From Candidatus Nanohaloarchaea archaeon (GTDB taxonomy: Archaea; Nanohalarchaeota; Nanosalinia; Nanosalinales; Nanosalinaceae), in contig JACOQA010000002.1 in NCBI GenBank assembly GCA_014297435.1, forward strand, positions 62,001 through 126,000: a DNA stretch of 64,000 nt. The letters run 5' to 3'. Below are positions 13,017 to 25,189 of the stretch, piece after piece. The notes under the pieces are model-generated. The model did no database searches. It had not been told where the DNA came from and saw nothing but the letters and a program-made list of their open reading frames with translations. How positions within the stretch are numbered: the first letter of the stretch is position 1; the number at the start of each line of letters is the position of its first letter. The translations under genes were made by a program, and so were the position numbers.

Positions 13017-13144
13017 ATGTAGTTATTTAAATCGAATACTTATAAATGTTACTGTGTAGTAGTTACACTTTTTTGTTGGATTTAGGGACCCATCAACATT
13101 AACTTAACTTCTAAAACTAGAATCTATACGTGATCCACGAATGA

Positions 13145-13154
13145 AGGGTGGACG
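13145..13154 (+). promoter_or_regulatory. AGGGTGGACG box upstream of serS
   Basis: AGGGTGGACG is one of only three copies I found; the others start the structured leaders near 15.34 and 25.17 kb on the minus strand. Here it lies 72 bases before the serS start, in a 210-base intergenic region. AT-rich ttaactta lies about 42 bases upstream, the same TATA-to-box distance as at the other two copies, which would put the box about 17 bases into a transcript. A short TCCAC/GTGGA hairpin precedes it. Nothing else is evident in 13017-13226. Confidence 0.4.
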
Positions 13155-13226
13155 TTTTTCCAACAAAAGGTAGAATCGAAGCTGTAAAACCTGTTCTAGA
13201 AAAAGCTTTCTTCACAAGTGGTCTGT

Positions 13227-14495
13227 ATGCTTGATATCGAACTTTTCCGAAACAATCCCGAGAAGATTAAGGAGTCGGAGAAACGCCGCGACAAAGAACC
13301 TTCAAAGGTAGATAAGGTTGTAAAGACCGATGAGGAATGGCGTGAAAAGCTCCAGGAACTCGATAAGTTAAGACAGGAAAGAAATACTGTAGGCGATGAA
13401 ATAGCTTCGCTTAAACAAGAGGGTGAGGAAGCTTCCGAGAAGATCGAAAGAATGCAGGAAGTGAAAGAGAAGATATCTGAATTGGAGGAAGAAGTTGAAG
13501 ATCTCAAAGAGGAAAGAGATGAACTTCGTTACGAAATCGGTAATATCCTCCATGAATCCGTTCCTAAAGGCATGGATGAAGAAGATAACGTAGAGGAGAG
13601 AACTTGGGAGCCTGAGAATGGGAAGGACGAGGATTCCAGACTGGCAGCCGATATTATCGAAGAAAACGATTTAGTTGAGACAGAGAAGGCTGCAGAACTG
13701 GCAGGAGAAAGAGCTTACTACCTGAAAAAAGACTTGTTCCGCTTGAACCAGGCCTTGATCCAGTTCTCGATGGACCTTTTGAGCGAGAAAGGTTTCACAC
13801 CGATGCAGACACCTTACATGCTAAAGCACGAGCCTATGGCGGCAGCAGCCGAGCTCGAGGACTTTGAAGAACAGCTATACAAGATAGAAGATGAGGACAA
13901 GTACCTTATCGCTACTTCCGAACAGACCTTGGCTACTTTCCATAAGGACGATATCCTGCTTCCTGACGAGTTTCCGAAAAAGTACGCAGGATTTTCAACC
14001 AACTTCAGGCAGGAAGCCGGCAAACACGGACAACAAACCAGAGGCATCTGGAGAGTCCACCAATTCGAGAAAGTGGAGCAGTACATCTTCTGCAAACCCG
14101 AAAATTCGTGGGAGCTCCACGAGGAACTGCTTGATAACGCGGAAGAAGTTATGCAGGAGCTTGGACTTCCTTACCGCGTTGTGAACGTCTGTACTGGCGA
14201 TATGAATGATAATGCCGCGAAGAAGTACGATATCGAGGTCTGGAGACCTCCAATCGGCGAGTACGGAGAGGTCGTCTCGTGCTCTAACTGTACCGACTTC
14301 CAAGCCAGAAAAGTAAACGTCAGGATTCGCGGAAGCGATGAAAATCATGTAGCACATACATTAAACGCTACAGCAGTCGCAACCTCAAGGATCATGACAG
14401 CAATTATAGAGAACAATCAGGAAGAGGAAGGAGTAAGAATTCCTGAACCGCTCCAAAACTACATGGGCGGACAAAAGTACATAGAGACAGTTTAG
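13227..14495 (+). CDS. serS: Seryl-tRNA synthetase (bacterial/haloarchaeal type)
   Basis: This class II synthetase loads serine onto tRNA-Ser. The protein is 422 residues from ATG 13227 (MLDIELFRNNPEKIKES); the GTG at 13218 on the track would add three residues with no support. Residues 1-110 form the long antiparallel coiled-coil arm that grips tRNA-Ser. The catalytic core follows with motif 2 NFRQEAGKHGQQTRGIWRVHQF and motif 3 around NATAVATSRIMTAI. It is the common form, not the rare methanogen form. Its last four bases overlap the converging gene at 14492. Confidence 0.95.
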   Translation: MLDIELFRNNPEKIKESEKRRDKEPSKVDKVVKTDEEWREKLQELDKLRQERNTVGDEIASLKQEGEEASEKIERMQEVKEKISELEEEVEDLKEERDELRYEIGNILHESVPKGMDEEDNVEERTWEPENGKDEDSRLAADIIEENDLVETEKAAELAGERAYYLKKDLFRLNQALIQFSMDLLSEKGFTPMQTPYMLKHEPMAAAAELEDFEEQLYKIEDEDKYLIATSEQTLATFHKDDILLPDEFPKKYAGFSTNFRQEAGKHGQQTRGIWRVHQFEKVEQYIFCKPENSWELHEELLDNAEEVMQELGLPYRVVNVCTGDMNDNAAKKYDIEVWRPPIGEYGEVVSCSNCTDFQARKVNVRIRGSDENHVAHTLNATAVATSRIMTAIIENNQEEEGVRIPEPLQNYMGGQKYIETV

Positions 14496-14821: not shown

Positions 14822-15112
14822 CTAGTTTCCATCGCCGAACTCCCCCAGAGGGATCTCTGATGAGCCAAGATAATCAAAGGAATGTTCGTAATTCAGACCT
14901 CCATCAGCGACAGTTTCCTGATTTTCCTCTTCAAGCATCTCTGACTGGAAACCGTCCATCCCAAGCTGCTCGATATAATCCGGATCTTCGATTCCATAAG
15001 CTTCATCGCCCTCAACCATCAAATCGTCCTCTTTACTGGATTCGATATAGCCTTCAGGGTCTTGAACGATTGGAACTTCCGGATCTCTTCCTATCCTAGG
15101 ACAGTAATCCAT
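14822..15112 (-). CDS. Hypothetical small acidic protein behind a structured leader
   Basis: A 96-residue, extremely acidic protein with no recognised family and no membrane helix (DYCPRIGRDPEVPIVQDPEGY at the start). Translation probably uses an SD (GGAGAGG) eight bases before ATG 15112, unlike the leaderless neighbours. This fits the long leader (about 245 bases) predicted upstream, which contains a CA-rich tract and hairpins shared with the leader of the gene at 24879. Confidence 0.55.
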   Translation of the reverse strand: MDYCPRIGRDPEVPIVQDPEGYIESSKEDDLMVEGDEAYGIEDPDYIEQLGMDGFQSEMLEEENQETVADGGLNYEHSFDYLGSSEIPLGEFGDGN

Positions 15113-15159
15113 TATAAACCCTCTCCAGATGTTTTTTCAGGTTTTGCGATGCGGCACCG

Positions 15160-15358
15160 TATTGTTGTGTGGTTGTGTGTTGTCATATCGAGTAGAACCT
15201 CGAAAAGAGAATTATTGGTTTAATGCAGCACTGCCACATTCACTGCGGCAGCGGAGAACATTTTAATTGAATGTTTAATTGAGGAGATCTGAGAAAACTT
15301 AGAGCAGAAGCTTCCGGGACTCAAGCACAAAACGTCCACCCTTGATTCCGCTCATATC
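15160..15358 (-). ncRNA. Structured leader or small RNA, copy 1 (AGGGTGGACG box, CA-rich tail)
   Basis: Read on the minus strand, a TATA box (aactatata, centre about 15384) predicts a start near 15358. AGGGTGGACG follows at 15342-15333, then GAGTCCCGGAAGCTT, TTTCTCAGATCTCCTCAATTAAA, hairpins (TCTAAG/CTCAGA, AACATT/AATGTT, CTGCC/GGCAG, TCGAG/CTCGA) and finally ATGACAACACACAACCACACAACA (ends 15160). Copy 2 near 25.0 kb shares the box, the middle motif and the CA tail in the same order. It may be a cis-acting leader of the 15112 gene or a free RNA. This is inference from sequence comparison by eye. Confidence 0.5.
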
Positions 15359-15400
15359 CTAACAAAGTTCAGAAGACAGTTATATAGTTTAGGACGGTTT

Positions 15401-16606
15401 CTACCAGACCATCAGTGAGTGCTCATCCCTTACAAGATCCTCATCCCATTTTTCAGGAACATTTTCAGGAACAAGTTTCCTGAGCTCCTCTTGATTCACT
15501 TCACCCAGAAGTCTTTTTCGCTCCTCTTTCATCTGTCCGGGTCTGTTTCTTATTGCGTCACGATCAGGCTCACCGTCAAAGCTTCCTCTAACGGCGTTAC
15601 CCAGTATGTGCGCCATGTCGTTGACGTCCTCGCCATTGATCCTCATGTCGTTATCGGAGTAAAGGATGAACTCGAGATCCGGATTAAATACGTATCTCCC
15701 GTCCCCGTCTGCCTCAACTAGGTATTCAGGAGCGCTCCTATCAATATGACCGAGCAAGCCAAGTCCATTGAGGGTTGCGGCGTGGCGACCCCACATCTCC
15801 GCGTCGTTCTTAGAGATACCCATACTATCAACAGGCTCTGACCATGAGTGAAGTATTCCAACATCAAGGTTCGATTTTTCATAACCTCTGTTTCTCGTTT
15901 TCGGTTCTTTGCTGTCTACCCATAATTGTTCAGGTCTTGTGAGACGTGTGAGTCCAGGATGTATTTGTCCTAATTCATCGTGTACGCCTTCGTCTCTATC
16001 GAGTGCTGTTCTCAGTCCTACTTCCTGTATCCAGCCTTGTTCTCCGTTTTCTATTTGACCGTTAGTGACGTCGTAGTTTCCTTCACCGAATACCTGTTGA
16101 AGGTTGGAAAGATCGCCGGCGTCTAGAGAGCTTCGGGTTATAAGGTCAGTATCATATGATCGGGCGACGCGTATTCCTATGTACTCATTGTCATCCGAAA
16201 CTGCGTATGCTGCACTTGGAGGCTGCTTTATTCCTTCAGGATCGAAATCTTCTCTAAAGAATATTTCAAACTCTTCATCCGGACCTTCTTCTGGCTCCAC
16301 CGCCAGTTTGACATCTAGCTCGTCTCTTTTTTCGTTGTATTCCTCCCAGAGCTGTTTCTGGTCTGGTTTCATCCGGGTACCTGTATTAGTGTTTCGCCCC
16401 ATGCTTCCTGAAGCCATGTATGAATTGCCCGAACGACCGCCATCGGATAGATCCTCTACAAGTTCATAAACAGGCTCGTGGACTATATCGAACATGTCTA
16501 GGACTGACTGCGGTTCGTCATCCACGTACACTTGGATGTCCTCAATGCGGCTTATATCGTAAGAATTCACTTCCCCCTCCCCGTCATAGCTACTGGCGAG
16601 TGACAC
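15401..16606 (-). CDS. Hypothetical acidic protein
   Basis: This 401-residue protein is unrecognised. It starts at GTG with an SD-like GGAAGTGAT four bases upstream. No signal peptide or membrane segment is visible, and it is acidic throughout. The C-terminal third (LNGLGLLGHIDRSAPEYLVE, FNPDLEFILYSDN, VNDMAHILGNAVRGSF) faintly recalls a kinase-like lobe, with an NP-D near where a metal loop would be, but this is too weak to assign. It is followed by the promoter of structured leader copy 1. Confidence 0.6.
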   Translation of the reverse strand: MSLASSYDGEGEVNSYDISRIEDIQVYVDDEPQSVLDMFDIVHEPVYELVEDLSDGGRSGNSYMASGSMGRNTNTGTRMKPDQKQLWEEYNEKRDELDVKLAVEPEEGPDEEFEIFFREDFDPEGIKQPPSAAYAVSDDNEYIGIRVARSYDTDLITRSSLDAGDLSNLQQVFGEGNYDVTNGQIENGEQGWIQEVGLRTALDRDEGVHDELGQIHPGLTRLTRPEQLWVDSKEPKTRNRGYEKSNLDVGILHSWSEPVDSMGISKNDAEMWGRHAATLNGLGLLGHIDRSAPEYLVEADGDGRYVFNPDLEFILYSDNDMRINGEDVNDMAHILGNAVRGSFDGEPDRDAIRNRPGQMKEERKRLLGEVNQEELRKLVPENVPEKWDEDLVRDEHSLMVW

Positions 16607-16808
16607 TTATATCACTTCCGGCATCTTCAGTATGGATTTCCAAAGACCTGATAGAAGACTGCGAGTTAACCTTGCAGAAAGCATCCACCTTTTATTGTGG
16701 TGTAGCGCATACTTTATAGCGTTCAAACTCAGAATTTATAAAAGGACGTGGAGTCAGCGCCTCTAAAACCAGTATGGATTTAAGTGAGTTCATGTCTCAT
16801 GGAAGGGT

Positions 16809-18857
16809 ATGGAAACAACGGTCATGGTCGGGGAGAAGCCCAAAGTCGCCTCCCGGATCGCCAACGCCCTCGGAAACTACGACACCAAGACCAACCGAGG
16901 GGTCAAGAACTACGTAATCAAGACAGATGAGAGAAAGATAATCATAGCACCTGCCGTAGGCCACATATTCAACCTCGACCAGATCGCCGACAACTGGGAC
17001 TACCCTGTATTCGACGTAGAATGGAAGCCAACATTCGAAACTTCCGACTCGGCCGACTACATGAAGAAATACTACAACAACCTGAAAGACCAGCTGGAAA
17101 AGGCTGACACCTACATCAACGCGTGCGACTTCGACCTTGAAGGCTCTGTTATCGGATACAACGTTATCAAACACTTGACTGGTGCCGATGAAGAAAGAAT
17201 CGAACGCATGAAGTTCTCGACACTGACTCCTTCCGACCTACAGGAAGCATTTGATAACCTGGAGGATTTTGACGCCGGAATGACAGAAGCCGGAATAACA
17301 AGACACATTCTCGACTACTACTACGGTATCAACGTTTCCCGTGCACTGATGAAAGCGGTTAGAGATAACGACCGTTACAAGACTCTTTCTACAGGACGTG
17401 TGCAGGGTCCGACACTTAAGATCTTGGCGGACAGAGAAAAAGAAATACAGGAGTTTGAACCGGATCCTTACTGGGAGCTTTACCTAAAACATGCGGAGTT
17501 TGACGCTCAGTGGGAGGAAGACGAGGACAGGATCTGGGACCAAGAAACAGCGAACGACAAGTTCAACAAGGTATACGGAGAAACCGAAGCAGAAGTCACA
17601 AACGTGAAGGTAAACAACTATACGCACAAGCCACCGATACCTTTCAACCTGACAGGACTACAGAGCGAGGCCTCATCACAGTTCCGTATAAGCCCAAAGA
17701 AGACGCAGTCGATCGCGCAAACACTTTACGAAAACGGGCTTATCTCTTATCCTAGAACCGAGTCACAGAAACTGCCGCCGAAGATCGGATACAAGAACAT
17801 ACTGAACAAGCTGAAGGGTCAGGAAAGCTACGATAATCTGGCGAAAAAAGTACTGAAAAAAGATAAAAACGACAACCTTTACACGACGCAGGGAAGTAAA
17901 GAAGACGACGCACACCCTGCAATCTATCCAACAGGAGAAAGCCCGGGCGGAAAACTGTCAAAACAGGAGAAAAAAGTCTATGATTTAATTGTAAAACGTT
18001 TCTTCGCCGTATTCGGCAAACCAGCCAAACGTCAATCCCTTACCTTCACTCTCGACGTTAAGGAAGAAGAGTTCAAGGCCAAGTCAAAGGTTACAAAGAA
18101 GAGGAACTGGTACGAGCTCTACGATCCATACGTTAAAGTGGATTCGGCCGATCTCCCGGACATGGAGGAAGGCCAGACACTCCAGGTAGAAGACTTCGAA
18201 CTTGTTGACAAAGAAACGCAGCCACCTAACCGTTACAGCCAGTCAAAGATTGTCAACGAGCTTGAGAAACGAGAACTAGGTACAAAAGCGACACGTGCCG
18301 ACACCGTAGACCGCCTTTACGACAGGAACTACATCGAAGAGGAGCCTATCGAAGTAACGGACCTGGGACTTGCGATCGTAAACACTCTAGAGGACTACTG
18401 TGGCAACATCGTCTCCGAAGAGCTTACACGCGAATTCGAGGAAAAGATGCAGGAAATAAGAGAGCAGAAAAACACGAAAGAAGAAGTTCTGGAAGAGGCA
18501 AGAAACGAGTTAGGAGATATACTCGAAAAGTTCAAGGAGAAACAGAAACAGATTGGTTCAGAGCTTGTCGACACAATCGACTCCGAAAGAGAACGCAGAA
18601 GAAGACTAGGTCCATGCGATATCGAGGATTGTGACGGCACCCTAAAAATAATCAAGGCAAACGGCTCAAAATTCGTAGGATGCTCAAACTACCCTGACTG
18701 CGAAAACACATACCCATTACCGAACAACGGAGATATAAAGTCGACAAACGAGGTCTGCGAGGAATGCGGAACACCTAAGATCTTCGTAAGCAGGAAGAAA
18801 GGAAAAGACTACACGATGTGCCTATTTCCGGATTGTCCTACAAAAGATTCTTGGTAG
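16809..18857 (+). CDS. topA: DNA topoisomerase I (type IA, archaeal)
   Basis: A 682-residue type IA topoisomerase that relaxes negative supercoils through a 5'-phosphotyrosine link. The TOPRIM domain is at residues 1-150 (VGEKPKVASRIA; acidic DFDLEG), and the active-site tyrosine is in LISYPRTESQ near residue 316. The C-terminus carries Cys-rich zinc modules (CDIEDCDGTLKII, GCSNYPDC, CEECG, CLFPDC). ATG 16809 follows TATA-like ggatttaag by about 28 bases, and another TATA box (atttataaaagg) lies 68 bases upstream, so two transcripts are possible. Confidence 0.95.
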   Translation: METTVMVGEKPKVASRIANALGNYDTKTNRGVKNYVIKTDERKIIIAPAVGHIFNLDQIADNWDYPVFDVEWKPTFETSDSADYMKKYYNNLKDQLEKADTYINACDFDLEGSVIGYNVIKHLTGADEERIERMKFSTLTPSDLQEAFDNLEDFDAGMTEAGITRHILDYYYGINVSRALMKAVRDNDRYKTLSTGRVQGPTLKILADREKEIQEFEPDPYWELYLKHAEFDAQWEEDEDRIWDQETANDKFNKVYGETEAEVTNVKVNNYTHKPPIPFNLTGLQSEASSQFRISPKKTQSIAQTLYENGLISYPRTESQKLPPKIGYKNILNKLKGQESYDNLAKKVLKKDKNDNLYTTQGSKEDDAHPAIYPTGESPGGKLSKQEKKVYDLIVKRFFAVFGKPAKRQSLTFTLDVKEEEFKAKSKVTKKRNWYELYDPYVKVDSADLPDMEEGQTLQVEDFELVDKETQPPNRYSQSKIVNELEKRELGTKATRADTVDRLYDRNYIEEEPIEVTDLGLAIVNTLEDYCGNIVSEELTREFEEKMQEIREQKNTKEEVLEEARNELGDILEKFKEKQKQIGSELVDTIDSERERRRRLGPCDIEDCDGTLKIIKANGSKFVGCSNYPDCENTYPLPNNGDIKSTNEVCEECGTPKIFVSRKKGKDYTMCLFPDCPTKDSW

Positions 18858-18861
18858 CGGC

Positions 18862-19347
18862 TTAAATAATCTTGTAACGCTCCTCTAGATTCCTAATCTC
18901 CTCTTTGCTATGCTTGGAAAACTTTGGTTCGTATCTGTAGAAAGTTGAGAAAAAACGGACTAAGGTCCAGTTCTTGGAGCAATATCTGTCTTCATTCCGC
19001 CCGATTTCGGTTTTAAAAACATTTTCAATCTCTGAGGCTACGCTCTCATTCTTCTTTCTTATTCTAAGTTCGTTTCCTGTACACAGTATATTTGAGGCGA
19101 TACCATCTAATCTTGAGTTAGGTTTTAATGGCAATCTAATTTCAGAATTTTCGTTACCTCTAACCCCTACTTTGTATCTGAGTTGGTTTTCTCCCATTAG
19201 CCGATGTGTTTCCGCCTTTCCGAAAAGTTCAACAATTTTCGAAACCGGTGCTGCATACTTATCTTCCTCCCAAGTGTAGACCTGATGTCTGGATATCTCT
19301 AAGTTTGAGGCTATCTGACGCTGATAAAGCCCTCTTTCTTCTCTCAA
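18862..19347 (-). CDS. HTH-domain protein next to a homing endonuclease remnant
   Basis: This 161-residue frame starts at TTG and contains an N-terminal helix-turn-helix (YQRQIASNLEISRHQVYTWEE), of the type used by phage-like regulators. The remaining 120 residues are basic, unlike the acidic host proteome (many Lys/Arg/Asn), which suggests acquired DNA. It lies just downstream of the broken LAGLIDADG gene on the same strand and may be part of the same element. It could itself be a decayed fragment, since no good promoter or SD is visible. Confidence 0.5.
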   Translation of the reverse strand: MREERGLYQRQIASNLEISRHQVYTWEEDKYAAPVSKIVELFGKAETHRLMGENQLRYKVGVRGNENSEIRLPLKPNSRLDGIASNILCTGNELRIRKKNESVASEIENVFKTEIGRNEDRYCSKNWTLVRFFSTFYRYEPKFSKHSKEEIRNLEERYKII

Positions 19348-19386
19348 GCCCTGATATTATCGCCTAAACCTTCACCCTAAGATCCT

Positions 19387-20347
19387 CTACCTGATGAGGT
19401 CAAAGAAGTCTTTGAAGAAGTTTGACTTCTTTCTACCTCGATAAACGTAAGTTCGGGAACCTTTTTCCAGCTTCCTTATCATTTCTTTTTTCTTACGCGG
19501 ATGAGAGAACCCCCACATTATTACAGAAATTTCCGAAGTCCCTAGGACTGAACCTCAGAAGATAGGACCCAGGTTTCCGGATCTCACCTTCGATATTGAT
19601 TCCTTGCATATCGTTCTGACATGTTTCAAGAAAAGACCTAGTAGCTGAAGAGAGCGAAACTCTATAACTCTCCTGAGGCATACACCCATCCGTGTCAAAT
19701 ACTCCTCTCCAGTAGGCGTTAGATAGGTCTCCAGAGTCAAAAATTTCTGGGCGAGATAGTTCTCCTTTCTTGTAGGATTTAGGTAGGTTGAAACAGTGTC
19801 GGATGTATCGGCAGAACCATTTGTTAGCTATTTTAAGTTCGATTTTATTGCCTCTCTCGAGTATGCAGCATGTGCTTTCTGGTAAACCGAAGAGTTTCTG
19901 AACTAGTTCCTAGAGTTTCTCGATAAATTTTCTTGAGTCTTCGAGTTCTTCCGGCTTTCCTCCATCTACTACGCTCCATATGTTAGGTCCGTTGAATCCG
20001 CCATCTCCTGCTGCTACGCCTGCAAAGTATGCAAATTTCTCGGTTTTGAGATCCGAGTTTTTTCTTGGCGGATCGAGTTTTGAGGAGTTTCGTGAGCTGG
20101 TTATGTATTCTATTTCTTGGGACATCGTTTTTTCGTTGATGAGTTCTGAGAGGATGTCCATAGACCATGTCTGTTTTTCTTTACATCTTTGCATGGTCTG
20201 AGAAGTAATATTATGTTCTTCTGGATCTAAAATGTTGTATATTTCCTTGTTTCTTTCTTTGCCTATCTTAGCGTAGGGTATAGACTTTCGGCTTTCTTCT
20301 TTGCCGTTAATAAGGGCTTTAGACAAGTTGATGATTTCCTCTGGCAT
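19387..20347 (-). pseudogene. LAGLIDADG homing endonuclease, broken by TAG and a frameshift
   Basis: The first frame (20347-19910) ends at TAG, but the same frame continues to 19493. Across the stop it reads SRKFIEKL[TAG]ELVQKLFGLP, a natural continuation. Two LAGLIDADG helices are visible, YFAGVAAGDGGF and YWRGVFDTDGCM, with catalytic-type acidic residues. The frame is then lost at a GGGGG run; shifting by one base gives VGFSHPRKKKEMIRKLEKGS, the usual C-terminus, ending at 19387. One nonsense mutation plus one single-base insertion have inactivated it. It is a free-standing endonuclease next to topA, with no intein splice blocks seen. Confidence 0.85.
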
Positions 20348-20434
20348 GTAGATTTATTACTGGGCTTCTTTTGAAAAGTGGAGCGGACGGAGTTCCGTTA
20401 GTTCCGGTAGAAAAAGAACAAAAACAGTTATTTA

Positions 20435-20731
20435 TCATTTAGATGACTGTTCGCCATCGTGAAGTTTTTCTCTTTCTAGGTCGATTGCGGTATCGATCAA
20501 GAGACGTCCTAGCTGCCTTCCTCTTTCCCGGGACATGCCTTTTTCTTCGAACCTGTCCGCGAACTGCTCCATGACCTGTTCCTCCCGATTCTCATCCTTT
20601 ATCTCTATATCGTTTTTCTCTTTATACTCGATGACTTTGAGGACTTCTTCCATCCTGTCATCAATTTTCTCAACTATCTCATCGTTTATACTGTCGATGT
20701 TGCCGCGGGCATCTTCCAGAGGATTCGCCAT
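20435..20731 (-). CDS. aroQ: Chorismate mutase, AroQ class (second copy)
   Basis: A 98-residue all-helical AroQ domain that rearranges chorismate to prephenate. Residues matching the E. coli active-site set are present in order: R in ARGNIDSIN, R in DDRMEEVL, K in EYKEKND, and KDENREE. It is the last gene of the aromatic operon, 26 bases after tyrA. It is clearly paralogous to the mutase at the other end of the operon. Two separate mutases may supply the Phe and Tyr branches, or pair with the adjacent dehydratase and dehydrogenase. Confidence 0.88.
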   Translation of the reverse strand: MANPLEDARGNIDSINDEIVEKIDDRMEEVLKVIEYKEKNDIEIKDENREEQVMEQFADRFEEKGMSRERGRQLGRLLIDTAIDLEREKLHDGEQSSK

Positions 20732-20757
20732 AATAGGTTATGATTGAACGGTCTTTT

Positions 20758-21615
20758 TTACTTACGGACTTCATCGCTCAAATGCTCTATTACCAGATCT
20801 GTTCTTTCCTGCGCATCTTCAAGATCGAACTCTTCGCCCAACTCCTCAAACTTTTCTGCGAAAGCCTCTTCATCCCCTATTATTTCCTGTATCTCCTCAG
20901 CGGACTCCTTGAATCGTTCACGTACTTTTTCGTTCTCAGGGTTTTCGGCCTGTATAGAGCCGTAAAGTCCGGACTTCTGATTCAGCATTCTTGCTGTAAG
21001 ATCGGTAATTAACTGGTAGACCGGAGAAGAATATTCTGACATCTCCGAACCCGACATATCTGACTTCCTGATGGTTTCGGAAACCACGAGCTCTGAGAAA
21101 TGCATCAATCCCTGTACAAGACTCATCGCCTTATCATGCGACTCAGCATCTGTGACATGTATATGTGCGTCTTTCCGGTTCCAGAACTCTTCCATAGCCG
21201 TCCATTTCTTCCCTTCAATCGGAGTTAAGACAATTTTCTGACCTTCAACCGAGTTCGAAGGGGCATACATCGGATGCATCCCCAGAACTTCATCAGAATA
21301 CTGTTTCATAGCCTCTGTCGGCTTCTTCTTAACGCTTGTAATATCGCAGAACAAGGTATCGTCCGAAATATGTGAACCGATCTCTTCAATAACATCAACA
21401 GTTACAGCGATAGGAACTGCCACGATTACGACATCCGCATCTTTTACTATCTCGGTGTTTTCTCCAAAATCCCATCCATGTTTATTTGCCACTTCTTCGG
21501 CCTCTTCAAGACTTTCACCGGAGATAGTTATCTCGTTGTGTTCTTCGAGAAGTTTTCCTAGGTGTTGGCCGAACTGACCGGTTCCGCCGACAATAACGAT
21601 TTTTTCGTCTATCAT
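20758..21615 (-). CDS. tyrA: Prephenate dehydrogenase
   Basis: This 285-residue enzyme oxidatively decarboxylates prephenate to 4-hydroxyphenylpyruvate, the tyrosine precursor. The Rossmann nucleotide site is IVGGTGQFGQHL at residues 7-18, and the family stretch DITSVKKKPTEAM followed by GMHPMYAPS is present. A strong SD (GGAGG) lies four bases before ATG 21615, and the start overlaps the aminotransferase stop by four bases. There is no fused mutase or ACT domain; the mutase is a separate gene downstream. Confidence 0.92.
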   Translation of the reverse strand: MIDEKIVIVGGTGQFGQHLGKLLEEHNEITISGESLEEAEEVANKHGWDFGENTEIVKDADVVIVAVPIAVTVDVIEEIGSHISDDTLFCDITSVKKKPTEAMKQYSDEVLGMHPMYAPSNSVEGQKIVLTPIEGKKWTAMEEFWNRKDAHIHVTDAESHDKAMSLVQGLMHFSELVVSETIRKSDMSGSEMSEYSSPVYQLITDLTARMLNQKSGLYGSIQAENPENEKVRERFKESAEEIQEIIGDEEAFAEKFEELGEEFDLEDAQERTDLVIEHLSDEVRK

Positions 21616-22724
21616 AGTTCCTCCTCCAGGATGTCGAACGCTTTGTTGATTTCTTCTTTAGTTGTTGAGCCGAAACATATTCTGACATTTTGATCGCTTT
21701 CCGGACCCATAGGTTCGCCAGGAACCATCGCAACACCTTCCTCGATCATATCAAGACAGAAATCCCAGGAATCCTCTTTAACCTCGGGAAATGCATAGAT
21801 CGCTCCTTCAGGCATCTGAAAATCCCATCCTAGCTCGTTCATTCTTTCGACAAGCAGGTCTCTTCTTTCCTCGTAAACCTGCCTCATCTCTTCAACGTGT
21901 GAATCATTTTCCAGTGCTTCAAGCGCTGCAATCTGCGAGGGTTTTGGCGGACAGGCAGTTGCTCCTCTCGCGACTTTCGCAAAGTTCTCTATATCATCTT
22001 CTCTTCCTACCACCCAGCCTATTCTCCAGCCAGTCATCGCATGATTCTTCGAAACTGAACCGATCACTACAGAGTTTTCACAGTATGCTGCAGGCGAATA
22101 ATGAGTCTTTCCATAATTCAGGCGATGGTATACCTCATCGGAAAGAAGCATGACGTCATTTTCTTCACAGAACTTTCCGATGTTCTTCGCTTGTTTTTCT
22201 GTTAGCATTCTTCCTGTCGGGTTTGAAGGCGTGTTAACCACGACAAGCTCTGCATCTTTCATTTCCTGCTTTGCTTCGTCTCTAAGTTCTTCGCCATCAA
22301 AGTACTCTACTTGTGTCCACTGATTGCCGTTAACCTCACTCATCAATTTGTACGGACCCCAGCAAGGATCGTTAAATACAGCTTCTTTGTTCGAGTCAAG
22401 CATTGCCGCAAAAACAGAGTAAATCGCTCCCATTCCGCCTGTAGCAACCATAACGTTTTCTTTAGAAAGCTCGGCGTTTTTCGGACCAGTTTTTTGCTTT
22501 AATCCTTCTTCCTCAACAATGGCTTTTCTCAATTTTTCAATACCTGTTACTGATGTATATCCCTGTTTCTGTTCGACTATTCCGTCTGCTGCAGCCTTTT
22601 TAACATGTTCAGGCGTGTCAAAGCTTGGCTGACCGATATCAAATCGGACACATTTATCTTGTTCTCTTGCTTTTTCCGAAATCTTTCTGATCGAAAGCTC
22701 TATGTTTTCAATTCTTTCACGCAT
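21612..22724 (-). CDS. Class I pyridoxal-phosphate aminotransferase (aromatic/aspartate type)
   Basis: At 370 residues this is a fold-type I aminotransferase. The PLP lysine is in VIGSVSKNHAMTGWRIGW, with the conserved NTPSNPTGR loop and the C-terminal arginine of the carboxylate site in VRICFGS. The start is placed at ATG 22724, which has an SD (GGTGG) five bases upstream and only an eight-base overlap with pheA; the track start at 22745 has no SD. In this operon it should transaminate phenylpyruvate and 4-hydroxyphenylpyruvate to Phe and Tyr. Substrate choice is inferred from context. Confidence 0.9.
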   Translation of the reverse strand: MRERIENIELSIRKISEKAREQDKCVRFDIGQPSFDTPEHVKKAAADGIVEQKQGYTSVTGIEKLRKAIVEEEGLKQKTGPKNAELSKENVMVATGGMGAIYSVFAAMLDSNKEAVFNDPCWGPYKLMSEVNGNQWTQVEYFDGEELRDEAKQEMKDAELVVVNTPSNPTGRMLTEKQAKNIGKFCEENDVMLLSDEVYHRLNYGKTHYSPAAYCENSVVIGSVSKNHAMTGWRIGWVVGREDDIENFAKVARGATACPPKPSQIAALEALENDSHVEEMRQVYEERRDLLVERMNELGWDFQMPEGAIYAFPEVKEDSWDFCLDMIEEGVAMVPGEPMGPESDQNVRICFGSTTKEEINKAFDILEEEL

Positions 22725-23493
22725 CTTTACCACCGAATGATCCAAGGACTTTAACCTCGGCGTAAGTTTCCAGACATTTTTTCGTGTTCTCGAATTTCTC
22801 AGAGTTCTGGTCGGCCTCCGCCTCTATGTAGAAAAAGTAGTTTCCAAGACCATCTTTAGTCGGCCGAGACTGGATGTACGCCAAGTTAATTCCGTGTCCA
22901 GAAAAACATGAAAGCATCGACCCTAGAAGACCCGGACGATCCTCACCCGGCTCCACTATCATCGATGTCTTACTGCCTTCACTTTGTTTACCGTTTAAGA
23001 TGAAGAACCTGGTAGTGTTTGACTCACGATCCTGTACGCTTTCCTCCAGAATGTTTAGATCGTTTAGTTGTGCTGCAAGCTTGGAGCAGATCGCGGCTTC
23101 ACCTTCTTCTATTTCCTCAGCGGCTTTGGCAGTGCTTGAAGACTCTTTTTTCTCCCAGCCATTTTCTCCAATTATCTTTTTTGACTGTGTCAGTGCTTGT
23201 GGATGAGACCGAACTTTCTCGACATCGTTAATGTTTCCTTCTTTTGAGGCTAGTACGTGATCGATCTCGACCTTTACCTGTCCTGTAACCTCAACATCTC
23301 TTTCTCTCAACAAGTCGATCGATTCTGTTACTCCACCTCCAAGAGAGTTTTCGAACGGTATTACTGCTGCCTTGGCATCTGATTCAACCGCCTCTGTTAT
23401 AGTGGAGACCGGAACCGGTTCATAGTTGGAGAAGTATTTTTCTGCAGCTTGATGGGTGTATGTGCCTTCAGGTCCTAGGAACGCTACTTTCAT
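22717..23493 (-). CDS. pheA: Prephenate dehydratase with ACT domain
   Basis: This 258-residue enzyme turns prephenate into phenylpyruvate. The catalytic domain (about residues 1-170) begins VAFLGPEGTYTHQAA and contains the signature SNTTRFFIL. The C-terminal ACT domain (about 180-255) has GLLGSMLSCFSGHGINLAYIQSRP, which in the family binds phenylalanine for feedback control. It overlaps the upstream mutase stop by one base (TAATG) with an SD (GAGGAT). Confidence 0.93.
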   Translation of the reverse strand: MKVAFLGPEGTYTHQAAEKYFSNYEPVPVSTITEAVESDAKAAVIPFENSLGGGVTESIDLLRERDVEVTGQVKVEIDHVLASKEGNINDVEKVRSHPQALTQSKKIIGENGWEKKESSSTAKAAEEIEEGEAAICSKLAAQLNDLNILEESVQDRESNTTRFFILNGKQSEGSKTSMIVEPGEDRPGLLGSMLSCFSGHGINLAYIQSRPTKDGLGNYFFYIEAEADQNSEKFENTKKCLETYAEVKVLGSFGGKDA

Positions 23494-23759
23494 TACATAT
23501 CCTCTTCCTGTAAATCAACAGCAGTATCTATCAGTAGTTCAGCGAGTTCCCGACCTTTTTCTCGAGGTAGGTCTTCTTTTTCGAAAAGCTTCTCGAACTG
23601 ATCCTTAACAACTTCCTCTCTGCCTTCATCCTTGATTTCCATGCCGTTCTGTTTCTTGTATTCGCCGATCTCCTCGACAACGTTCATCCTGCGGGAAACT
23701 GCGTCAACGATCTCGGTATTAACCCTGTCAATCTCCTTCCGGTAATCCTCAAGATCCAT
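23493..23759 (-). CDS. aroQ: Chorismate mutase, AroQ class (first copy)
   Basis: An 88-residue AroQ domain at the head of the operon. Active-site matches are R in YRKEIDRVN, R in SRRMNVVEE, K in EYKKQNG, and KDEGREEVV. A TATA box (catttataaaac on the minus strand) lies about 29 bases upstream and an SD-like GGTGAATC nine bases upstream, making this the likely operon promoter. It is paralogous to the copy at 20435. Confidence 0.9.
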   Translation of the reverse strand: MDLEDYRKEIDRVNTEIVDAVSRRMNVVEEIGEYKKQNGMEIKDEGREEVVKDQFEKLFEKEDLPREKGRELAELLIDTAVDLQEEDM

Positions 23760-23800
23760 GTCTTTGATTCACCTTCGAAGCGTTTTATAAATGGCGGAGG

Positions 23801-24382
23801 TTATGGGGTGTTGAAATGCCCCATGTAGGGAGTATCCTCCGTATCAACATCTTCCATCTCTCTGTGACGAGTTCCATCATAAGTCGGAAAACCGCCATCA
23901 GTAACGACTGCTTTCTCCGATTCTTCAGTAACTTGGATCTCCCACGACGATTTCTCGCCATATTCTTTCCCCAGTTCCTGTCGGGTTTCGAACACCGTGT
24001 CTCGAACCTCAGAACGTTCACCGGCAATAACTACCTCATCGTCGAACTCGAAAACTTCAACATTCTCAGGTGCAGCTTTTTCGGCTTCATCCTTGCCGCT
24101 TTCAAATGTTCGTTGATACTCGAAACCGTTCTGGAAAACTTTTGGAAATGCTTCACGGAAACCTTCGATTCCTGCACCCTGGTCATAAACTTCTATGGAG
24201 TCGTCATAGTCGACTACTTTTATCCTGCCGTGATCGCTGTTGACATGTATATCTCTTCCGTTGGCGTCCCCTGGATAGTTCCAGGACCGGGCGGTTTCTA
24301 CAATCTCTTCCTCGTAACTTTCAGGCACCTCAACTTCTGTCCCGACATGGGTTGGCGAAAAGTCGAATCTTTTTGCAGCCAT
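23801..24382 (-). CDS. Hypothetical acidic protein
   Basis: This 193-residue protein is unrecognised. It has mixed strand/helix character (IHVNSDHGRIKVVDYDDSIEVYDQ), no cysteines and no membrane helix. Its ATG overlaps the upstream gene's stop by one base, so the two are coupled and probably function together. It may be transcribed from the promoter of structured leader copy 2. Confidence 0.6.
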   Translation of the reverse strand: MAAKRFDFSPTHVGTEVEVPESYEEEIVETARSWNYPGDANGRDIHVNSDHGRIKVVDYDDSIEVYDQGAGIEGFREAFPKVFQNGFEYQRTFESGKDEAEKAAPENVEVFEFDDEVVIAGERSEVRDTVFETRQELGKEYGEKSSWEIQVTEESEKAVVTDGGFPTYDGTRHREMEDVDTEDTPYMGHFNTP

Positions 24383-24879
24383 TATTCCATCACCGGGAAG
24401 CCGTCGTAGCTGTCAAAGGTGTTCGGTCTGTAGGTTTCTCCGTGGAACCAGCGTTCGATCTGTTTTGCCTGCTGAGGGTTCATATTACTGCCGATAACAT
24501 CATCAAGAAACTCATTTGTCTGATCGTAAACTTCATCAACAGCTGATTCGATCTCCATCATCTCATCCCTGTTAAAGGCGTACTCCTGAGAGATAGCCTC
24601 ACTACTTCCTTCAACGAATCTTTCTCCCGGGACTTCTAATGTGTCGAAGAACTCGCCATATTTTTGAGAGGGTTCTACATCTTCCTCCGGTTCGGCCAAT
24701 TTTTCCCACCAGATCTGACCTGAAGGATCTACATCATACACAGGATCTTCTCCTCCGTCCGTAACGGTTCTGTCGACTCTGCCGTTTACGGTTTCGAGCT
24801 CTCCTTCAGCTGTTTCCTTGAAGGTCATATGTGGAGCCTCTACTCTTTCCTTGATGCTGGAATCGCCTCCAGTATACAT
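24382..24879 (-). CDS. Hypothetical acidic protein behind a structured leader
   Basis: This 165-residue acidic protein is unrecognised. Its C-terminal half is helical and Tyr/Glu-rich (EIESAVDEVYDQTNEFLDDVI). It is first in a two-gene unit following the long leader with hairpins and a CA-rich tract. An SD-like GAGGT lies about 10 bases before ATG 24879, consistent with a leadered message. It shows no evident homology to the gene behind leader copy 1. Confidence 0.6.
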   Translation of the reverse strand: MYTGGDSSIKERVEAPHMTFKETAEGELETVNGRVDRTVTDGGEDPVYDVDPSGQIWWEKLAEPEEDVEPSQKYGEFFDTLEVPGERFVEGSSEAISQEYAFNRDEMMEIESAVDEVYDQTNEFLDDVIGSNMNPQQAKQIERWFHGETYRPNTFDSYDGFPVME

Positions 24880-24933
24880 GCTCTCAATACCTCTCTGGTT
24901 TTTCTGAATTAGTTTTGGGTTTTTCTCTCATGC

Positions 24934-25189
24934 CGTGTGTTGTGTGGTGTGTGTTGTGTGTCATGATTGTATCACGAATACGAAATGGCGTTTTCTACGG
25001 TTTTACCGTGAGAAAAGCCTTTTTTGGAATTTACAGCAGAATCAGTAGCAGCAGAAGTAGCAGTAAAATTGAAGATAATACGAAGTCAGTAGAAACCGAA
25101 ATTTTAGTTGAGAAGATCCGTGAGAAAGCTGGGGCTCGACCCGTCTTAAAGTTGCAGAACCCGTCCACCCTGAGTTGCGGACATCATCG
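24934..25189 (-). ncRNA. Structured leader or small RNA, copy 2 (AGGGTGGACG box, CA-rich tail)
   Basis: On the minus strand a TATA box (gtttataaat, centre about 25215) predicts a start near 25189. AGGGTGGACG lies at 25171-25162, then GTCGAGCCCCAGCTT, TTTCTCACGGATCTTCTCAACTAAA, a long hairpin (GGC-TTTTCT-ACGG paired with CCGT-AGAAAA-GCC, 24985-25018) and the tail ATGACACACAACACACACCACACAACACACGG. The order and several motifs match copy 1 at 15160-15358, including the box being about 17 bases into the transcript. The same TATA site may also serve the rightward strand. The remaining bases 24880-25281 hold only leader and promoter sequence. Confidence 0.5.

Follow-up and report, generated by a model that had tools for sequence, protein, structure and literature searches.

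A group of gene leaders in a 64,000-nucleotide (nt) stretch of the genome of Candidatus Nanohaloarchaea archaeon (GenBank assembly GCA_014297435.1, contig JACOQA010000002.1, positions 62,001 to 126,000; hereafter the window) are very probably sensors of starvation for a single amino acid, which would act when ribosomes that meet a "hungry" codon in a short upstream open reading frame (uORF) undergo programmed +1 frameshifting. Two of these leaders, both on the minus strand, are a Val-type leader at 15358 and a Leu-type leader at 25189. A first-pass annotation of the window had read this pair as a family of structured cis-regulatory RNAs or free small RNAs that it did not recognize. They do belong to an unrecognized family of cis-regulatory leaders, but what characterizes the family is an apparently translated uORF with a specifier codon and a +1 frame, not a structured RNA or a free small RNA. 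We further consider it probable that the leaders form a lineage-wide, modular class of archaeal sensors, built around one exchangeable hungry codon and +1 frameshifting, in which serial copies would be gates that each need a slip and which would control synthetases, amino acid metabolism, and peptidases.

Specifier codon and +1 reading frame

In each leader of the pair, the box AGGGTGGACG lies in constant phase inside a short ORF, and a TATA-like element is present upstream of its ATG. The uORF follows the pattern M(x)n-G-[GDE]-[RCHY]-[F/V/P/A]-X, in which X, the specifier, is the codon right after the box. Its start is near leaderless, with the TATA-like element usually about 30-36 nt 5' of the AUG. 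X matches the downstream synthetase gene, namely, Ser with serS, Thr with thrS, Gly with glyS, Val with valS, Cys with cysS, Tyr with tyrS, Phe with pheS, Leu with leuS, Pro with bacterial-type proS, Lys with lysS, and His with hisS. A Trp codon occupies the position at the head of operons holding trpS, and an Ile codon does so before ilvA, which encodes threonine dehydratase. The specifier was cognate in all 38 tabulated leaders and in 25 later ones, giving 63 of 63 synthetase-linked leaders. These come from 19 genomes, which represent 13 genera and three families within the order of Nanohaloarchaeota, and among them are the further copies in related genomes that the first-pass annotation had called for. 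It was also cognate in 16 of 16 leaders from a pattern search that was blind to the specifier. One representative each of nine synthetase types, as well as IlvA, was confirmed by NCBIfam models. One further match, an Ile specifier before a TrpRS-like gene on an apparently foreign contig (G019, L228), was dropped as chance. In synthetase genes without the box, the TATA-like element tends to stand directly 5' of the gene's own ATG. Two genomes carry a bacterial-type proS with a leader and an archaeal-type proS without one (L140 and L141 versus L145-L150).

All 38 tabulated leaders keep the +1 frame open from X as far as the main start, compared with an expectation of 9.0 when the leaders are dinucleotide shuffled (summed log10 P about -27), and the stop of this frame always falls between -13 and +10 nt relative to the main start. 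In half of the leaders (19/38), this stop overlaps the main start exactly as ATGA or GTGA. Frame 0 reaches the main start in none of the 38, and a -1 frameshift was rejected, as only 6 leaders have a -1 frame without a stop before that start. By frame, slips of +1 and -2 are indistinguishable. The distance from specifier to start varies from 60 to 318 nt, which argues that the leaders are not one inherited sequence. Substitutions among relatives are spread about equally over the +1 codon positions (0.23, 0.27, and 0.27), and a conserved +1 peptide, such as KPVLxKxF in serS, was therefore rejected as a general feature. Since the +1 ORFs have no third-position bias, it seems to be the openness of the +1 ORF, or the act of translating it, that is kept rather than the peptide.

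Three arrangements point to a real change of frame. In all seven leaders with tandem boxes of identical specifier, the second box is in +1 phase relative to the first; these are a Ser leader of the window's own genome (C1:272k), the Pro leaders of proS in two genera, one Trp leader in G004 and two in G008, and a His leader in G005. Several trpS operons have the +1 frame as their first gene, encoding GNAT-like proteins of 238 and 243 amino acids, a GCS2-like protein, or an M20 peptidase of 358 amino acids. The +1 frame of branched-chain-type leaders closes with runs of Ile, Leu, and Val codons (ILLLLLLLLILL in the leader at 25189, AIAIILLIILIL, SYIIILFIILLFLL, and, before ilvA, NISAIGIISIIGMIMG). 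Most leaders of this type contain a third short ORF of 24-36 amino acids, rich in Thr, His, Gln, Asn, and Lys and poor in branched-chain residues, which ends near the main start and in G010 is fused to ilvA. In leaders sensing two different amino acids (Ile and Leu, or Val and Leu), both boxes share frame 0, and therefore a shortage of either amino acid would suffice. Tandems for the same amino acid stand in successive frames, and therefore two slips would be required.

The exact box has six copies in the 1-Mb genome that contains the window, versus one in the reversed control, and the relaxed in-ORF form ATGN{0,48}GGTGRNYRYKTT occurs 15 times versus none in controls. Across the order, GGTGGACGTTTT gave 25 matches versus 4 in reversed controls, and the relaxed pattern gave 140 versus 26 in about 23 Mb. 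The range outside Nanohaloarchaeota was covered with the exact box over a species scan and with the relaxed pattern over 32 archaeal genomes. The scan of 84,980 prokaryote species returned 37 contigs, which is not above chance (about 60 by base count), and synthetase-linked uORFs were found there only in Nanohaloarchaeota. The 32 other archaeal genomes (about 42 Mb) gave 93 relaxed matches versus 44 in reversed controls, scattered and without an MKGG form, although diverged versions in Haloarchaea could remain.

Proposed mechanism and its alternatives

We suggest that transcription would begin at or just 5' of the AUG, where the sequence offers a TATA-like element and an in-frame start, and that the ribosome would then translate the short uORF up to the box. 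The 3' end of the 16S rRNA reads ...GGATCACCTCC in five relatives, from which the anti-Shine-Dalgarno (anti-SD) sequence was taken, since a search for this end in the genome of the window found none; the GGUGR of the box is complementary to this anti-SD, UCACC. GGUG is separated from the codon before X, the P-site codon, by 5 nt, and several main genes have GGTG at this same distance from their ATG (e.g., AGGTGTTTCTATG), so that pairing would hold or slow the ribosome while its A site, with X exposed, is empty. With plentiful aminoacyl-tRNA for X, frame 0 would be read on to its early stop, far short of the main gene. With scarce aminoacyl-tRNA, the ribosome would slip by +1 (or -2) and read the +1 frame, a step that the frame geometry constrains strongly. 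As this frame extends up to or across the main start, its translation could lead to reinitiation there or keep the RNA covered, and in several trpS operons the first protein would be the product of the +1 frame. In the branched-chain type, including the pair in the window, the Ile/Leu/Val run and the small ORF following it may be a second, attenuator-like stage. The genes switched on would be those for the cognate aminoacyl-tRNA synthetase and threonine dehydratase and operons with aromatic amino acid enzymes or M20 peptidases.

Several points weigh against this interpretation. Masking of the main ribosome-binding site (RBS) by the leader was not detected (mean difference in unpaired probability, +0.03 +/- 0.02); because no general masking was seen, the likeliest outputs would be reinitiation at the overlapping stop and start or shielding of an otherwise naked leader from transcription termination. 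Ten of the 38 tabulated leaders have divergent boxes that were picked by eye with the specifier visible and are weaker evidence alone, and in the second set of 25 the gene identities come partly from N-terminal similarity (TrpRS by Pfam in three). Not all synthetases in all genomes carry a leader. Perfect re-pairing in the P site after a +1 slip is impossible for TTT-A, TTT-G, GTT-C, and GCG-T. Lastly, GGTG contains a GTG in +1 phase, which could be a start codon for the +1 ORF.

This last point is the basis of an alternative in which the uORF and the +1 ORF would be two overlapping cistrons, the latter starting independently at the GTG. Such a GTG is present in nearly all boxes and would be a possible start for first genes such as the GNAT-like and GCS2-like ones. 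Independent initiation, however, leaves the cognate frame-0 codon at one fixed position unexplained, and in leaders beginning with MK only about 7 nt separate the GTG from the AUG that opens the uORF. The upstream Trp box of SG9 (AAG GGG GGA TAT TTT TGG) has no GTG, yet the specifier and the open +1 frame are kept. We regard two independent cistrons as improbable. Slightly better placed, though still unlikely, is leader-peptide attenuation by stalling only, in which a stall in frame 0 at the specifier would alter RNA folding or transcription and the +1 frame would be incidental. The concordance of the specifier fits this explanation, as do the Ile/Leu codon runs, which are like those of classical attenuators. 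It is opposed by the excess of open +1 frames, by the position of the tandem boxes and of the Ile/Leu runs in the +1 frame, by the trpS operons whose first gene is that frame, and by leaders in which neither excess folding (mean z of -0.65 in 37 synthetase leaders) nor general RBS masking was detected. A conserved arrest peptide, KGGRF, was also considered and is weakened by the replacement of R by C, H, or Y and of F by V, P, or A, while GGTG(R) is constant.

It is very improbable, in our judgment, that the leaders are free small RNAs or RNAs of the T-box or riboswitch kind, to which uncharged tRNA or an amino acid would bind. The targets are synthetase genes with a specifier codon, some hairpins exist, and AGGGTGGACG resembles the T-box consensus AGGGUGGNACCGCG. 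But the box is located at the 5' end and within a reading frame, all that follows keeps a reading frame, and no Rfam match was found in the window region at E values up to 1 except for one chance microRNA match outside the leaders; T-box homology was rejected on the position of the box and the lack of an Rfam match. The several hairpins listed in the first-pass annotation exist singly, but the whole leaders of the pair fold like shuffles (z of -0.36 and -0.60). A structured riboswitch or small RNA was rejected because folding is at shuffle level, Rfam gave no match, and reading frames and specifier, rather than helices, appear to be conserved.

Relation to known systems

One of the two nearest relatives in logic, besides the ermC leader, is bacterial prfB, in which release factor 2 (RF2) regulates its own synthesis by +1 frameshifting with an SD-like element about 3 nt from the shift site. 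In both cases, a scarce factor for one A-site codon would lead to a +1 slip, an SD-like element is located upstream, and the product would restore the missing activity; in the trpS operons the +1 frame is, as in prfB, the protein itself. The leaders likewise have an ORF in frame 0, a defined shift site, and beyond it an open +1 frame (38/38), as well as a putative internal SD-like stimulator (GGUGR versus UCACC), although GGUGR is at an initiation-like spacing, unlike in prfB. Whereas prfB uses a stop codon that is read by its own product, the leaders use a sense codon exchangeable among at least 13 amino acids, and the product is usually the enzyme that charges the tRNA for this codon. They also differ in being archaeal and in having a separate leader uORF that extends up to the main start. 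A stricter judgment could be that they are a form of autoregulatory +1 frameshifting.

In function, attenuation leader peptides and T-boxes come nearest. With the leader peptides of attenuation (trp, ilv, his, and pheL), the leaders share amino acid-specific codons in a short leader ORF before amino acid genes and, in the branched-chain type, runs of Ile, Leu, and Val codons. They differ in that a single specifier stands in a fixed box, the geometry demands a change of frame, no terminator-type folding signal was found, and the output would be at the main start codon. T-boxes are similar in that one specifier codon defines the amino acid sensed and synthetase or amino acid genes are the targets, but there a folded RNA reads the tRNA without translation, whereas here the specifier is in an apparently translated ORF and neither sequence nor structure matches.

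For decades, work on frameshifting at hungry codons has treated it as an error that starved cells make, and we know of no natural counterpart in which it is used for regulation. The hungry-codon frameshifting of Escherichia coli is similar in that the slip occurs at a codon lacking its aminoacyl-tRNA, but it is known as an error or recycling phenomenon and not as a regulatory cassette (PMC5009743). A review from 2016 considered the natural extent and role of such frameshifting still unclear (PMC5009743). In the leader ORF of ermC, a ketolide-induced frameshift lets translation run on into the spacer and activates the gene that follows (PMC5009743). Here too a frameshift in a leader ORF would activate a downstream gene; in ermC, by contrast, the signal is a drug and not an aminoacyl-tRNA, a masked initiator is opened, and the target is a bacterial resistance gene. 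In archaea, a 2021 review of recoding listed only readthrough for selenocysteine and pyrrolysine and -1 frameshifting as demonstrated, with +1 frameshifting reported for one haloarchaeal virus (PMC8211752). No description of such leaders was found in the open literature on archaeal attenuation, uORFs or frameshifts in Nanohaloarchaea, and hungry-codon control of synthetases, a scope outside which most subscription papers and all preprints fall. The components are thus known, but a swappable sense-codon specifier combined with a change of frame is, as far as we have checked, undescribed as a class.

If this interpretation is true, an archaeal lineage has built a modular regulator in which the swap of one codon changes the amino acid that is sensed. 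It would be an amino acid sensor unlike a T-box or a stalling attenuator and would place synthetases in archaea under control at the level of aminoacyl-tRNA. It would also explain how amino acid-dependent symbionts may fit synthetases, biosynthesis, and peptidases to supply, and it would offer a rule, open to testing, by which programmable frameshift switches could be designed.

Leaders of the window and neighboring genes

The kinship of the Val-type and Leu-type leaders is beyond chance, since their local alignment score of 44 was attained by none of 1000 dinucleotide shuffles (17.2 +/- 3.2, maximum 34). The shared elements reported in the first-pass annotation are as described. A TATA element precedes both uORFs (TATATAA about 30 nt before the ATG at 15355 and TTTATAAA before the ATG at 25187), and the box is found on the minus strand at 15342-15333 and 25171-25162. 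Beyond it, both leaders have, in identical order, the stretch GAG-C/T-CCC...AGCTT, the motif TTTCTCA..GATCTYCTCAAYTAAA, and a tail of the form ATGACA(CA)n. Their meaning changes in two respects. The supposed transcript start coincides with or adjoins the start codon of the short ORF, so that the box is coding. The CA-rich tail, present in both leaders, is the opening part of another short ORF. The two leaders are real and related, but they are not only a pair, as the window holds two more members (Table 1).

Table 1. Leaders and associated genes in the window. Hyphens set off the specifier residue; each peptide ends at a stop codon.
Feature	Positions	Strand	Remarks
serS leader, uORF1 MKGGRF-S-NKR	13141..13173	+	specifier TCC 13159-13161
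serS leader, +1 frame PTKGRIEAVKPVLEKAFFTSGLYA	13160..13234	+	stop 5 nt within serS start
serS, seryl-tRNA synthetase	13227..14495	+	TIGR00414, 474 bits
Val-type main gene, acidic protein of 96 amino acids	14822..15112	-	function unassigned; no Pfam match
Val-type third short ORF MTTHNHTTIRCRIAKPEKTSGEGL	15112..15186	-	CA-rich tail; TAA overlaps main ATG (TAATG)
Val-type +1-frame continuation CLSPGSFCSKFSQISSIKHSIKMFSAAAVNVAVLH	15220..15327	-	Val/Ala-rich end
Val-type uORF1 MSGIKGGRF-V-LESRKLLL	15299..15355	-	box GGTGGACGTTTT 15340-15329; specifier GTG 15328-15326
ORF of 401 amino acids after the 16710 leader	15401-16606	-	GTG 16606 or 16570; no Pfam match
+1 frame of the 16710 leader CKVNSQSSIRSLEIHTEDAGSDISVTRQ	16590..16676	-	enters start of 401-amino-acid ORF
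Further Leu-type uORF1 MRYTTIKGGCF-L-QG	16666..16710	-	
Aromatic cluster	23759-20435	-	order: chorismate mutase, prephenate dehydratase, aminotransferase, prephenate dehydrogenase, second chorismate mutase
Leu-type first main gene, 165 amino acids	24382..24879	-	function unassigned
Leu-type third short ORF MTHNTHHTTHGMREKPKTNSEKPERY	24884..24964	-	CA-rich tail; ends 4 nt before main ATG
Leu-type +1-frame continuation ...STDFVLSSILLLLLLLLILL	25031..25156	-	Leu/Ile codon run
Leu-type uORF1 MMSATQGGRV-L-QL	25146..25187	-	specifier CTG 25157-25155

The Val-type leader, whose +1 tail is MFSAAAVNVAVLH, sits opposite serS, and comparable V- or V/L-type leaders adjoin serS in SG9, G009, G015, and G002. 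Downstream of the first main gene of the Leu-type leader, an ORF of 193 amino acids is followed by the aromatic amino acid cluster. In G010, an equivalent Ile-type leader heads ilvA, which is followed by aromatic genes of like kind, as judged by sequence similarity. The genome of the window contains further copies, with the uORFs MSQAIKGGRF-I-VRKTAFYK (C1:137k) and MYDHFQLRTKGGRF-S-AAQNMF (C1:272k). A box MQGGCF-K, with a Lys codon, lies 5' of an endonuclease V gene at G000:C1:121264 (L191, L208), and its +1 stop falls just before the start; Lys-type leaders of other loci, in contrast, precede lysS.

A few associations were observed in other genomes. ARAGORN located a tRNA-Cys(GCA) gene within the cysS leader of G020, inside the +1 frame (L231:415-486), and the cysS leader of G023 (L026), judged by eye, probably has a similar arrangement. 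M20-family peptidases recur in leader-headed operons (L087, L207, L203, L252, and L263), as if peptide breakdown belonged to the starvation response. Proteins resembling GCS2 (glutamate-cysteine ligase family 2) follow Leu- and Trp-type leaders in several genomes (L243, L251, and L205, the last checked with Pfam), and small AbrB-like proteins are encoded in or near the +1 frame of His-type and Tyr-type leaders (L256 and L240).

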